Source of the DNA: Palleronia pelagia
Lineage (GTDB): Bacteria > Pseudomonadota > Alphaproteobacteria > Rhodobacterales > Rhodobacteraceae
Length of the DNA stretch: 64,000 nt
Reading direction: 5' to 3'
Assembly (NCBI RefSeq): GCF_900110115.1
Contig: NZ_FOCM01000004.1
Coordinates: 186,001 to 250,000, forward strand
The notes under the pieces were generated by a model. It was not told the DNA's origin and did no database searches. It was given only the letters and a program-made list of their open reading frames with translations. The stretch's first letter is position 1; each line of letters opens with the position of its first letter. Shown in pieces: positions 32,950 to 37,428 of this stretch. Both the position numbers and the translations under genes were made by a program.

Positions 32950-34383
32950 TCAGGCGGCCTCGGCCAGCATCCGGGCCGCAATGGACAGGTCGGCGCGGAA
33001 ATCGCGCATGGCGGCCTCTTTCGCCGCCGCGTCGGGCACGCGCAGCAGGTAGGACGGATGCAGCGTCAGCAGGACGGGTGTGCCATCCTCGGCCGCCTCG
33101 ACCGTGCCGCGTCGCGACAGGATGCCCTTGCCGCTGCCCGTCAGGCTTTCCGCCGCCGTCGCACCCATGGCGAGGATCAGTTTCGGTCGGACCAGCTGCC
33201 GCTCCGCCTCGAGCCACCATTTGCAGGCCTGCACTTCGCCCGCGTCGGGGCGTTGGTGGATGCGCCGCTTGCCGCGCGGCTGGAATTTGAAATGCTTCAC
33301 GGCATTGGTGACAAAGGCGCGGTCGCGGTCAAGTCCGACCTCGCCCGCCACCCGGTCGAACAGCTGGCCCGCCGGGCCGACGAAGGGACGCCCCGCCAGA
33401 TCCTCACGATCGCCGGGTTGTTCGCCCACGATCATCAGCGGCGCGTCGCGCGGCCCCTCGCCCATCACCACCTGCGTGGCGTCCCGGTGCAGCGGGCAGC
33501 GCCTGCAGACGGCGGCCTGCCGGTGGAGCGCGTCCAGGTCGCCTGCGGGCGGTGGCGTGTCCTGCCCCGACAACCGCTCAGAGATGCGCGCCGCGCGCAG
33601 CGGCGGCAGGCTGGGCGCGGCGGCCTGCATCTGGCGCGCCCGCGCCTCTGCGCCCGCGATCATCTCGGGGATGGCGGCGGCCTCGGGCAGGTTCTTCCAG
33701 TATTTCTTTGGCATTTCCGACTGCATCGCCTGCACCTTCAGACGCGCGGGATTGAAGATGTTGCGGAAATAAGTGGTCCAGAGCGCTTCGTGCGCGTCGT
33801 CGGGCAGGTCCGGCTTGGCCCCGCCCGGCAGCAACGCGATCCGGCCATCGGTGAAGGCGACCGAGCGGTGGGGGGTGACGATCAGCCAGTCCATGTCGCC
33901 GAAGCGGCGCGCGAAGAAGCCCGCCATGGGCTCGGCAATGTGGTGGGTGGGCTCGAACCACGCGGCGAAGCGGCGGCGGTCGCCCAGTTTCGGCACCTCG
34001 CGAAAGCGCAGGAAGGCCTTCATCTTGTGCTTGTCGCGGCTGACGGCCTTTTCCATCACGCGCAACTTCGCCAGGTCCGCATCGCCCCGATCGGCCATCA
34101 GCGACGGGCGATCCTTCAGCCGCCACAGGAAGGCGTAAAGGCGCGCGAACCGCTGCGGGTCGGAATGCCAGCAGAGGTTTTCGGCCAGCGACACGAAGCT
34201 TTTCGGCACGCTCACCCGCCCCGGCGCGGGTGGCGTGGCGGGCGCGTCTGCGAACAGATCCGCGTCGCCGGCCCCGAACTGCCACAGCACGTCGGCCGGC
34301 GGCACCCCGGCCCCCAGCAGCCCGCGCGCAGCGTCGCGCCACGCGGCCGCCGCGCCGATCTCGGGCACCACGACGGTGGGCAT
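32950..34383 (-). CDS. udgX: UdgX-type uracil-DNA binding protein with N-terminal DUF4130-like domain
   Basis: A 477-residue two-domain protein. Residues about 1-245 match the domain found with radical SAM DNA-repair candidates (WTTYFRNIFNPARLKVQAMQSEMPKKYWKNLPEA). Residues about 280-477 form a family 4-like uracil-DNA glycosylase with GEQPGDREDLAGRPFVGPAG and a metal-binding Cys pair (CRRCPLH). The UdgX hallmark insertion GKRRIH has its His at about residue 376, and LHPSYLLR follows. In UdgX that His bonds covalently to the abasic site after uracil removal. The ATG overlaps the stop of the radical SAM gene, so the two form one operon. Confidence 0.9.
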   Translation of the reverse strand: MPTVVVPEIGAAAAWRDAARGLLGAGVPPADVLWQFGAGDADLFADAPATPPAPGRVSVPKSFVSLAENLCWHSDPQRFARLYAFLWRLKDRPSLMADRGDADLAKLRVMEKAVSRDKHKMKAFLRFREVPKLGDRRRFAAWFEPTHHIAEPMAGFFARRFGDMDWLIVTPHRSVAFTDGRIALLPGGAKPDLPDDAHEALWTTYFRNIFNPARLKVQAMQSEMPKKYWKNLPEAAAIPEMIAGAEARARQMQAAAPSLPPLRAARISERLSGQDTPPPAGDLDALHRQAAVCRRCPLHRDATQVVMGEGPRDAPLMIVGEQPGDREDLAGRPFVGPAGQLFDRVAGEVGLDRDRAFVTNAVKHFKFQPRGKRRIHQRPDAGEVQACKWWLEAERQLVRPKLILAMGATAAESLTGSGKGILSRRGTVEAAEDGTPVLLTLHPSYLLRVPDAAAKEAAMRDFRADLSIAARMLAEAA

Positions 34384-35618
34384 CAGAAGAGGCTCAACTG
34401 CTCGGGCGGGGGCGCGAACCGCGCGCGCAGGTCGGCGCTGTCGGTCAGCGCGCCCGGCGTCCATCCGGCGGCGGTGATGAAGGCGCGCGCTTTCTTCAGG
34501 CTCGCCCCCATCCGCGTCAGATCCTCGTAGCGCAAGGTTCTGTGCCGTCGGGTCGTCAGGATGCGGTTCACCGTCTTCACGCCGAACCCAGGCACGCGCA
34601 GCAGCATCTCGCGCGGGGCCGCGTTCACGTCGAGCGGGAAGTGGTGGCGGTTCTGCAGGGCCCAGGCAAGCTTCGGGTCGATCTGGAGGTCGAGATTGCC
34701 GCCTTCGGTCGCGCCCGTGATCTCGTCCAGCCCGAACCCGTAGAAACGCAGCAGCCAGTCGGCCTGGTACAGCCGATGCTCGCGCTCCAGCGGCGGGCGG
34801 ATCAGCGGCAGCTTGGCCGAGCTGTCGGGGATGGGCGAGAAGGCCGAGTAGTAGACGCGCTTGAGCTTGTAGCTGGAGTAAAGCCGCGTGGACTGCCCGA
34901 GGATCGTCGCGTCGTTTGCCCCGTCTGCGCCCACGATCATCTGGGTCGACTGGCCGGCAGGCGCGAAGCGCGGCGGACGCTTGCCGGTGTGGGACCGGTC
35001 CTTCGACGCCTCTTTCGTCAGCCGCACGTCGGCCATGGCCTTGCGGATGGTGCCCGGGTCCTTCTCGGGCGCGTAGGACTTCACCGATGCGTCGGTGGGC
35101 AGCTCGACATTGATCGACAGGCGGTCGGCGTGGCGCCCGGCCTCTTCGATCAGGTGTGGGGCGGCGTCGGGAATGGTCTTGAGGTGGATGTAGCCGCGGA
35201 AATTTTGGACCTGCCGCAGCTCGCGCGCGATGCGCACCATGTCGGCCATGGTGTCGTCCGGCGACTTGATGATGCCGGAGGACAGGAACAGCCCCTCGAT
35301 ATAATTGCGGCGATAGAATTCCAGGGTGAGCTGGATCACCTCCTCCGGCGAGAAGCGCGCGCGGGTGACATTGCTGCTCACACGGTTCACGCAATAGGCG
35401 CAGTCGTAGATGCAGAAATTCGTCATCAGGATCTTCAGCAGGCTGATGCAGCGCCCGTCCGGCGCGTAGGCGTGGCAGATGCCGCTGCCCTCGGTCGAGC
35501 CCAGCCCCGAGCCGTCGCGCGACTGCCGCTTGGACGTGCCCGACGATGCGCAGGAGGCGTCGTATTTCGCCGCGTCCGAGAGAATCGCGAGCTTCTGTTG
35601 AAGATCCAGCTTGGCCAT
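34383..35618 (-). CDS. Putative DNA repair/modification radical SAM protein with HhH and clamp-binding tail
   Basis: A 411-residue protein. The radical SAM cluster motif is NFCIYDCAYCVNRV (Cys69, Cys73, Cys76). A helix-hairpin-helix DNA-binding motif lies near residues 335-365 (MLLRVPGFGVKTVNRIL). The last six residues, EQLSLF, contain QLSLF, which fits the bacterial beta-clamp consensus QL(S/D)LF. It matches the family of radical SAM proteins found next to UdgX-like genes, whose reaction is unknown. There is no SD before the ATG; a promoter placed so that the transcript starts at the ATG suggests a leaderless mRNA. Confidence 0.88.
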   Translation of the reverse strand: MAKLDLQQKLAILSDAAKYDASCASSGTSKRQSRDGSGLGSTEGSGICHAYAPDGRCISLLKILMTNFCIYDCAYCVNRVSSNVTRARFSPEEVIQLTLEFYRRNYIEGLFLSSGIIKSPDDTMADMVRIARELRQVQNFRGYIHLKTIPDAAPHLIEEAGRHADRLSINVELPTDASVKSYAPEKDPGTIRKAMADVRLTKEASKDRSHTGKRPPRFAPAGQSTQMIVGADGANDATILGQSTRLYSSYKLKRVYYSAFSPIPDSSAKLPLIRPPLEREHRLYQADWLLRFYGFGLDEITGATEGGNLDLQIDPKLAWALQNRHHFPLDVNAAPREMLLRVPGFGVKTVNRILTTRRHRTLRYEDLTRMGASLKKARAFITAAGWTPGALTDSADLRARFAPPPEQLSLF

Positions 35619-35662
35619 GCGTTCACACTACGTTCACGCCGTGACGCGAACAAGAGGCGAAC
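35619..35662 (-). promoter_or_regulatory. Two inverted LexA-type SOS boxes over a leaderless promoter
   Basis: GTTC-N7-GTTC, the alphaproteobacterial LexA site, is at 35621-35635. The same motif in the opposite orientation (GAAC-N7-GAAC) is at 35648-35662. On the minus strand TTGTTC (35653-35648), 17 bases and TAGTGT (35630-35625) make a -35/-10 pair. The predicted transcription start falls on the radical SAM ATG. The -35 lies in one box and the -10 in the other, so LexA binding would block the promoter. SOS control is inferred from the motif. Confidence 0.8.
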
Positions 35663-35667
35663 ATGCG

Positions 35668-36057
35668 TTACCGCGCCGCAGCCCCCGCCCGCAGCCAGGC
35701 CGCGAACTTGGCCTCGGGCACCCGCGATTGCGCGAGGTCTTCCATCATGGTGACAACCTCGGCATTGGGCACGTCCAGATCCTGACCGTTCACGTAGAGG
35801 AACACGAAGGCGGTCTGGAACGCGGTGCGCTTGTTGCCGTCGATGAAGGCGTGCGCCTTGGCGATCCCGAAAGCGTAGGCCGCGGCCAGCTCGAAAAGAT
35901 CGGGATCGCCATAGGCGTGCAGATTAAGGGGCCGCCCGCACGCCATTTCCAGCAATGCCTCGTCCCGCATCCCCGGCGTGCCGCCGTGGCGCGAAATCAT
36001 GCGGTCGTGAATGGCCTTGATTGCTGCGAACGGCACCCACCGGGGCGCATCGGTCAT
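35668..36057 (-). CDS. doc: Death-on-curing toxin (Fic/Doc fold)
   Basis: A 129-residue Doc-type toxin with the Fic core HAFIDGNKRTAFQTAFVFL (HxFxDGNKRT). Doc enzymes phosphorylate EF-Tu. The N-terminal WVPFAAIKAIHDRMISRHGG and GMRDEALLEMACGRP are typical. The core motif is complete, so the protein should be active. The ATG overlaps the antitoxin stop. The stop lies 6 bases from the SOS box of the downstream radical SAM gene, so read-through from the toxin-antitoxin promoter into the repair genes is possible. Confidence 0.9.
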   Translation of the reverse strand: MTDAPRWVPFAAIKAIHDRMISRHGGTPGMRDEALLEMACGRPLNLHAYGDPDLFELAAAYAFGIAKAHAFIDGNKRTAFQTAFVFLYVNGQDLDVPNAEVVTMMEDLAQSRVPEAKFAAWLRAGAAAR

Positions 36058-36278
36058 GCCAGCGCGTCCATCGCCTTGTCATAGCGGCGCGCGCCGACCT
36101 CGAGCGCGTCCATGGCGTCGGCGAAGTCGTCCTCGTGCCGCCGCAGGGCCAGCGACCCGTCATCGGTGCGCACGAGGTAGACGGTATCGCCCTCGGCCGC
36201 GTCCAGCACCGCCAGCGCCTCTTTCGAGAGCGTCAGGACGCAGGAATTGCCGACCTTGCGGATCTTGGTCTCGAACAT
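36054..36278 (-). CDS. AbrB/MazE-fold antitoxin partner of Doc
   Basis: A 74-residue protein. Residues 1-45 form a swapped-hairpin AbrB/SpoVT domain (MFETKIRKVGNSCVLTLSKEALAVLDAAEGDTVYLV). The acidic C-terminal tail probably wraps the toxin. Doc usually pairs with a Phd antitoxin, so this is a hybrid pair. GAGGT lies seven bases upstream of the ATG. It is the first gene of the operon, behind a palindromic operator. Confidence 0.87.
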   Translation of the reverse strand: MFETKIRKVGNSCVLTLSKEALAVLDAAEGDTVYLVRTDDGSLALRRHEDDFADAMDALEVGARRYDKAMDALA

Positions 36279-36291
36279 GGGTGATACCTCA

Positions 36292-36321
36292 TCTGTATAT
36301 ACCAGAAGATGTATATACAGA
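36292..36321 (-). promoter_or_regulatory. Operator palindrome of the AbrB-Doc operon
   Basis: Perfect 11-base arms (TCTGTATATAC and GTATATACAGA) are separated by 8 bases. A consensus -35 (TTGACA, minus strand 36334-36329) lies just upstream, overlapping the ychF stop codon. The repeat covers the expected -10 region, so antitoxin or complex binding would repress transcription. It is markedly AT-rich compared with its surroundings. Confidence 0.8.
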
Positions 36322-36330
36322 CGGATATTG

Positions 36331-37428
36331 TCAAGCGTTGAACAGGAAGTGCATCACGTCGCCGTCCTTGACGATATAAGACTTGCCCTCCACCCGCATC
36401 TTGCCGGCGTCCTTCGCGCCCGCCTCGCCGCCAAGCGATACGTAATCGTCGTAGGCCGTCGTCTCGGCCCGGATGAAGCCGCGCTCGAAATCGCCGTGGA
36501 TGACGCCGGCGGCCTTGGGGGCGGTGGTGCCGTTGGGGATGGTCCAGGCACGGGCCTCCTTGGGACCGACGGTGAAATAGGTTTGAAGCCCCAGCAGCTG
36601 GTAGCCCGCCTGGATCAGCCGGTCGAGCCCGGCCTGCTCGAGCCCCAGTTCTTCCAGGAATTCGCGCGCCTCGTCGGCGTCAAGCTGGGCGATCTCTTCC
36701 TCGATCTGGGCCGAGATCACCACGGTGCCCGCGCCCTGCTTCGCCGCCATGTCGGCCACGGCCTGGGAATGGGCGTTGCCGGTGGCGGCCTCGGCCTCGG
36801 ACACGTTGCAGACGAACAGGATCGGCTTGGCGGTCAGCAGTTGCAGCATGCGCCACGCCTTGGCGTCGTCCTCGGCCACCTCGACGGTGCGGGCCGGGCG
36901 GCCATCCTCCAACGCGGCCTGCGCCTGCTTCAGCAGGCGTTCCTGCTGCACGGCCTCCTTGTCGCCGCCGCGCACCTTGCGCGACAGGCCCGCGATGCGC
37001 TTTTCAACCGATTCCAGGTCGGCGAGCATCAGCTCGGTCTCGATCGTGTCGGCATCGGCGACCGGGTCCACGCGGCCATCCACGTGGGTCACGTCGTCAT
37101 CCTCGAAGCAGCGCAGCACGTGGGCGATGGCGTCGCATTCGCGGATATTGGCCAGGAACTGGTTGCCCAGCCCCTCGCCCCGGCTGGCGCCCTTCACCAA
37201 TCCCGCGATGTCCACGAAGGTCATGCGCGCCGGGATGATCTGTTTGGACTTGGCGATGCCCGCCAGCGTGTCGAGCCGCGCGTCGGGGACGGCGACCTCG
37301 CCCACGTTGGGCTCGATGGTGCAGAACGGAAAGTTCGCCGCCTGCGCCGCGGCGGTCTTGGTCAGCGCGTTGAACAGGGTCGATTTGCCCACGTTCGGCA
37401 GACCGACGATCCCCATCTTGAAGCCCAT
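36331..37428 (-). CDS. ychF: Redox-regulated ATPase YchF (Obg family)
   Basis: A 365-residue OLA1/YchF P-loop protein that prefers ATP over GTP and associates with ribosomes. The G1 motif is GIVGLPNVGKSTLFNAL, switch II is VDIAGLVKGASRGEGLGNQFL, and a NVSE motif (CNVSEAEA) takes the place of the GTP-specific NKxD. A C-terminal TGS domain ends in DGDVMHFLFNA. AAGGGA precedes the ATG at 37428; the frame upstream of it is not needed. Confidence 0.95.
   Translation of the reverse strand: MGFKMGIVGLPNVGKSTLFNALTKTAAAQAANFPFCTIEPNVGEVAVPDARLDTLAGIAKSKQIIPARMTFVDIAGLVKGASRGEGLGNQFLANIRECDAIAHVLRCFEDDDVTHVDGRVDPVADADTIETELMLADLESVEKRIAGLSRKVRGGDKEAVQQERLLKQAQAALEDGRPARTVEVAEDDAKAWRMLQLLTAKPILFVCNVSEAEAATGNAHSQAVADMAAKQGAGTVVISAQIEEEIAQLDADEAREFLEELGLEQAGLDRLIQAGYQLLGLQTYFTVGPKEARAWTIPNGTTAPKAAGVIHGDFERGFIRAETTAYDDYVSLGGEAGAKDAGKMRVEGKSYIVKDGDVMHFLFNA

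Follow-up and report, generated by a model that had tools for sequence, protein, structure and literature searches.

What controls the operon that begins with the radical SAM gene in this stretch of DNA (64 kb, called the window here), and where does its transcript begin? The 44 bp before the gene hold two LexA-type boxes laid over a candidate promoter whose predicted start point is the initiation codon itself. The best overall explanation, to which we give a probability of roughly 0.75, is a LexA-repressed leaderless promoter of the sigma-70 type, translational coupling of a second gene that encodes a DUF4130-UdgX fusion, and an operator that moves in evolution. The features involved are these:

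35621..35635, plus strand: LexA box A, an exact GTTC-N7-GTTC, which the minus-strand gene reads as GAACGTAGTGTGAAC and which embeds the -10
35648..35662, minus strand: LexA box B, an exact GTTC-N7-GTTC, GTTCGCCTCTTGTTC, whose terminal TTGTTC is the -35
35625..35630, minus strand: -10 hexamer TAGTGT, at -12 to -7 with A35618 as +1, a register repeated in relatives
35648..35653, minus strand: -35 hexamer TTGTTC, at -35 to -30 with A35618 as +1
35618, minus strand: predicted transcription start, the A of the radical SAM ATG, placed by the register of the promoter elements
34383..35618, minus strand: radical SAM protein of 411 aa (TIGR03916 rSAM_link_UDG, 574.9 bits against a cut-off of 343.5) with a CX3CX2C motif
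32950..34383, minus strand: DUF4130-UdgX fusion (TIGR03915 + TIGR03914) of 477 aa, overlapping the radical SAM stop in TGATG

Under this model, these 44 bp would form a LexA-repressed promoter of the sigma-70 type whose start point coincides with the initiation codon. In undamaged cells, LexA would cover the -10 from box A and the -35 from box B and so block RNA polymerase; upon damage, RecA-driven self-cleavage of LexA would free the promoter. The mRNA would then start at the A of the ATG and be translated without a leader, and the DUF4130-UdgX gene would be translated next through stop/start coupling at TGATG. Box B would have arisen in a single branch of the genus, with box A subsequently lost from some of its members, and the window would represent a redundant, perhaps tighter, double-operator intermediate.

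In the sense of the gene, the region reads GTTCGCCTCTTGTTC, 12 bp, GAACGTAGTGTGAAC, GC and the radical SAM ATG. The original prediction placed two inverted GTTC-N7-GTTC sites here, covering a TAGTGT and a TTGTTC hexamer 17 bp apart, and put the transcription start on the A of an ATG that lacks a Shine-Dalgarno (SD) sequence. Both sites are exact and correct to the base, the hexamers with their 17-bp spacer on the minus strand lie where they were placed, the start fits with A35618 as +1, and no SD sequence was seen upstream of the ATG. An in-frame TAG at 35630-35628 lies ahead of the ATG, so the gene has no upstream start codon. The two hexamers fit the consensus poorly, and a strict sigma-70 scan of 35550-36400 found no promoter. 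Boxes A and B, in opposite orientation, are the only two GTTC-N7-GTTC sites in the 64 kb scanned. That number is unremarkable: shuffling the window gives an expectation of 1.33 boxes per 64 kb, with at least two boxes in 35 of 100 shuffles, and the whole genome holds 85 sites against 39 for a reversed control pattern, about a twofold excess. What is unusual is the nearness of the two boxes, given that simple arithmetic for 85 random sites in 3.85 Mb leads one to expect about 0.08 pairs within 45 bp; the sole further close pair in the genome lies at lexA. Because chance statistics on the window alone fail to single out the boxes, we adopted comparative evidence.

Of 183 distinct alphaproteobacterial loci, which are related and do not count as independent cases, 177 have an exact box upstream of the radical SAM gene. 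Searched from -200 to +15 of the ATG, a first set yielded 127 of 133 loci, leaving six without an exact box, and a further set yielded 50 of 50; from the first, L169 was left out (start not found) and five duplicates were removed, and from the second three duplicates. Matches below the family cut-off in the operon survey were left out of the locus set, and the frameshifted L022 contributed its promoter and was excluded from the trees. Shuffled upstream regions contained a box in 0.6% of cases, as did 2 of 549 other open reading frames (ORFs) within 60 bp. Outside the Alphaproteobacteria, in the same phylum, the other LexA box type, CTG-N10-CAG, lies within 60 bp of the start in 24 of 29 loci and is missing in five. 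The predicted LexA control of the operon is supported by this conservation under two operator types and by the boxes that the window's own genome carries at lexA, recA, uvrA, dnaE2, pdeM, an ImuA-like gene (40.3 bits, below the family cut-off of 150) and a PA0069-family radical SAM gene, several of these SOS genes being read as fragments. The operon is patchily distributed in the taxonomic family, occurring in 48 of 248 genomes sampled (46 above the cut-off), and is present in all 14 genomes of the genus.

Some further sequences were noted around these starts. In three non-alphaproteobacterial loci (L261, L262 and L274), a CTGT-N8-ACAG box extends into the GTG start codon, a hint that a leaderless SOS start may have arisen there independently. 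Three others, with neither LexA box type (L252, L253 and L254), have in common an inverted repeat, similar to GGTCTCATCCAATGAGACC, upstream of the gene. We also weighed as an element, and set aside, a GTCGCA word near -46 to -52; it occurs in 23 of 183 loci, anywhere in 120 bp.

The position of the box relative to the ATG bears on the proposed leaderless start. A reverse-oriented box lies at -16 to -22 in 122 of the 183 alphaproteobacterial loci, and three more combine it with a forward box at -39 to -44; among the 177 loci that start with ATG, 96 have the reverse-oriented box at -16 to -18, over the -10. A register beneath such a box could be driven by LexA itself, so we turned to loci with the box in another position. 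Twenty-eight loci lack a reverse-oriented box at -16 to -22 (four carry a forward one at that place); among them T-12, A-11 and T-10 are found in 75%, 93% and 71%, and the three bases of TTG at -35 in 75, 79 and 64%. A cleaner set of 40 loci, with no box starting at -27 to -10, has A-11 in 78%, T-12 in 53% and T-35 in 80%, and the best -10 starts at -12 in 32.5% of these loci against 3.1% of 549 control ORFs. TTG is the commonest triplet at -35 to -33 in relatives. We also counted TAnnnT at exactly -12, for which the background is 0.5% per position. Where a single box covers the -10, it was found in 42 of 119 loci if the box is reverse-oriented and in 5 of 8 if it is forward. Loci with the box in the spacer gave 7 of 22, those with it over the -35 gave 3 of 6, all 3 doubles had the motif, and none of the 6 boxless loci did. 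The -35/-10 thus tends to keep its register with the ATG as +1 in the 40 displaced-box loci, where the operator leaves the -10 uncovered, so the leaderless start that had been predicted seems to be conserved while the LexA operator moves.

Alternatively, the operon might be under LexA control and yet not leaderless, with transcription starting upstream and the fit between -10 and ATG reflecting only a compact intergenic space. This would agree with the 27 single-box loci whose box, at -19 to -22, lies 2-5 bases further out and predicts a leader of that length, and with SD-like 4-mers in 9 of the 40 displaced-box loci, a frequency not below that of the control ORFs (89 of 549); it sits poorly with the retention of the register in many loci with displaced operators and with the scarcity of SD-like 4-mers, 6 in 96, where the box lies at -16 to -18. 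Moreover, recA and lexA behave in the opposite way within this taxonomic family, with TA at -12 in 0 of 28 lexA and 1 of 28 recA loci and SD-like words in 18 of 28 and 24 of 28 (the recA start was taken as the most upstream ATG near the anchor and may be imprecise). We therefore regard an upstream start as unlikely and favour the leaderless promoter, a layout that seven loci with a box at -96 to -99 do not fit.

A similar register appears at a second radical SAM gene. The PA0069-family gene has a box in 27 of 30 loci, lying 16-60 bp before an in-frame ATG in 25, where the start was taken as the ATG nearest downstream of the box, a choice that favours short distances. These 25 loci have A at -11 in 18, TA at -12 in 15 and an SD-like word in 1. 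The copy in the window's own genome (L333 / L188, G000:C11:82767) has its LexA box at -27 and a leaderless-type promoter, and its relatives are alike. PdeM was considered as a further leaderless SOS gene and dropped; 7 of 30 starts were located, none of them boxed in the stretch examined. Elsewhere in the genome, lexA itself carries two boxes that share a half-site, GAAC-N7-GAAC-N7-GAAC (L087:1501-1526, G000:C5:115793-115818), and two boxes 11 bp apart occur in 10 of 26 lexA loci read, this one included. A 218-aa open frame with no family match above cut-off has a LexA box at -16 (L212:701-1370, G000:C14:182440).

Every one of the 14 genomes of the genus carries box A, box B or a spacer box. 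Seven have box A only (L112-L115 and L122-L124), three have both A and B (L111, which is the window, L116 and L119), three have box B only (L117, L120 and L121), and one has a spacer box (L118); box B, where present, lies at -44 (6 of 14). All six B-bearing rows fall into a single clade of the protein tree (100/97), which is nested among rows with A, spacer-box and other layouts. The DNA tree groups five of the six (85/82) and the three doubles (99/98), with L121 unplaced. Across all 183 loci, double boxes number six, the other three being L016 (-50/-17), L229 (-43/-19) and L049 (-132/-33). The double LexA box is real in the window but is restricted to a few species and is no general feature of the operon. 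In Caulobacter, about 97% of SOS promoters have one box, according to a published account (PMC12700426).

L116 agrees with the window at all 16 half-site bases and departs from it at 11 of the 28 remaining bases of the promoter (Fisher 0.003), a contrast that is partly built in because L116 was classed as double by its exact boxes. The nearest relative, L119, is less exposed to this bias, with 0 changes over the 44 bp of the promoter against 38 third-position changes in the 411 codons of the gene, but here the half-sites are not singled out. Conceivably, box B is no operator, and TTGTTC and a chance GTTC merely make up a -35; the modest genome-wide excess of GTTC-N7-GTTC, just about twofold over the reversed control, would allow this. 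We judge it improbable, as box B is exact in six genus genomes and the sole exact box in three, and its six bearers are one clade of the protein tree. Box A is probably the ancestral site, and box B is lineage-specific. On the simplest reading B was gained and A was then lost in some lines, and the window looks like an operator in transit.

Two genes beyond the promoter raise the question of transcription from further upstream:

35668..36057, minus strand: Doc-family toxin gene, separated from the radical SAM ATG by 49 bases
36054..36278, minus strand: antitoxin partner of Doc (TIGR02609)

No terminator was found between doc and the radical SAM gene, leaving the operon unshielded from the toxin-antitoxin genes. 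The operon could then be read here mainly from the antitoxin-doc promoter, with the boxes acting as a road-block or persisting as a relic. That the doc module was found, among 221 loci searched (with flanks of differing length), in the three double-box species only would favour such read-through, but these species form one clade, so the co-occurrence counts once and amounts to no more than a hint. The promoter layout also exists in loci without the doc module, and the 44 bp have stayed unchanged in L119 while the gene has diverged. Read-through as the main source of transcript is consequently improbable, and the LexA-repressed promoter before the radical SAM gene remains our preferred reading. 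At 36292-36321, immediately ahead of the antitoxin gene, lies an inverted repeat with perfect 11-bp arms, TCTGTATATAC/GTATATACAGA, which are 8 bp apart; it is probably the toxin-antitoxin operator.

The operon was originally described as a radical SAM/UdgX pair. The radical SAM assignment stands, and the partner at 32950-34383 is corrected to a DUF4130-UdgX fusion. Its start shares one base with the radical SAM stop; in relatives, the second gene begins 1 base (28 of 78) or 4 bases (26 of 78) before the end of the first. By tblastn, DUF4130 is present in 80 of 80 loci and UdgX in 73, making DUF4130 the more constant partner of the radical SAM protein. The remaining seven loci (L018, L043, L047, L051, L053, L065 and L076) have radical SAM and DUF4130 with no detectable UdgX domain.

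Cysteines C69, C73 and C76 of the radical SAM protein are invariant over 53 rows. Its model (pLDDT 82.5) matches barrels of the HydE, lipoyl synthase and biotin synthase type (best E 5e-7), and its C-terminal part, with weak matches to the helix-hairpin-helix proteins ComEA and RuvA (E 0.02-0.08), is perhaps helix-hairpin-helix. The DUF4130-UdgX model has a pLDDT of 88.4 and a pTM of 0.52, a value that makes its domain arrangement unsure. Proteins of the UdgX type form a covalent bond to uracil-DNA. The UdgX domain in the window has the GEQPG motif A, the KRRIH loop with its histidine and motif B, and its model closely matches Mycobacterium smegmatis UdgX structures (E about 1e-20). The KRRIH histidine is kept in 69 of 79 UdgX rows, and 7 of the remaining 10 are gaps. 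For DUF4130, sequence search found no solved relative; its fold search returned, among the matches listed, mostly UDGs and phage polymerases. The operon likely encodes a unit for repairing DNA lesions, with the chemistry carried out by a radical SAM/DUF4130 core and UdgX as an accessory that deals with uracil or abasic sites.

A broader reading, for which we see the odds as even, is that in Alphaproteobacteria some SOS repair genes, the two radical SAM genes in particular, are hard-wired for leaderless transcription with the operator inside the promoter hexamers. Selection would fix the start while the LexA operator wanders, over the -10 in either orientation, in the spacer or over the -35, and the window would be a living two-site intermediate. 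If so, leaderless translation may allow the enzymes to be made when heavy damage compromises initiation. In this operon, SOS repression and leaderless translation, usually studied apart, would meet in a conserved and testable example. A single genus offers a natural series (A only, A and B, B only, spacer box) for operator movement without loss of control. Biochemical work on this uncharacterised SOS radical SAM enzyme should be steered by the finding that its constant partner is DUF4130 and not UdgX.

How does this operon compare with known systems? We take COG4277 to be the TIGR03916 radical SAM family. For the COG1573-COG4277 operon, assigned to UDG base excision, SOS regulation was inferred by comparative genomics in Bacteroidetes and is said there to have been reported in Verrucomicrobia and Alphaproteobacteria, as far as the available part of that paper goes (PMC8565304). 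SOS control of the operon is therefore not new, being already in print, and the window shares it; what that part of the account does not contain is the leaderless register, the hexamer-embedded operator, its relocation or the double box (PMC8565304). Our searches of the open-access literature, two of them aimed at leaderless transcripts, found, among the matches listed, no description of a leaderless layout or operator relocation for this operon, and no paper that combines 'UdgX' with 'radical SAM'. In Caulobacter, one study places CCNA_01391 among the early SOS genes and gives it a LexA box (PMC12700426); another, whose text does not name LexA, maps a leaderless primary start for it (PMC4287350).

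The PA0069-family SOS radical SAM gene resembles the window in combining a LexA box with a leaderless-type register in the same taxonomic family, but belongs to another radical SAM family, and its box is forward-oriented and in most cases lies at -27, directly ahead of the -10. Spore photoproduct lyase is a radical SAM enzyme acting on DNA. Like it, the window protein is a radical SAM enzyme, and DUF4130 has been linked with SplB-like radical SAM enzymes and UDGs in a published study (PMC3765255); spore photoproduct lyase is absent from the best 50 of 1156 fold matches to the window protein. With Mycobacterium smegmatis UdgX the window domain shares GEQPG, KRRIH with the cross-linking histidine and the HPS motif, at 48% identity in the best fold match, whereas in the window UdgX is fused behind DUF4130 and sits in an operon with a radical SAM gene.
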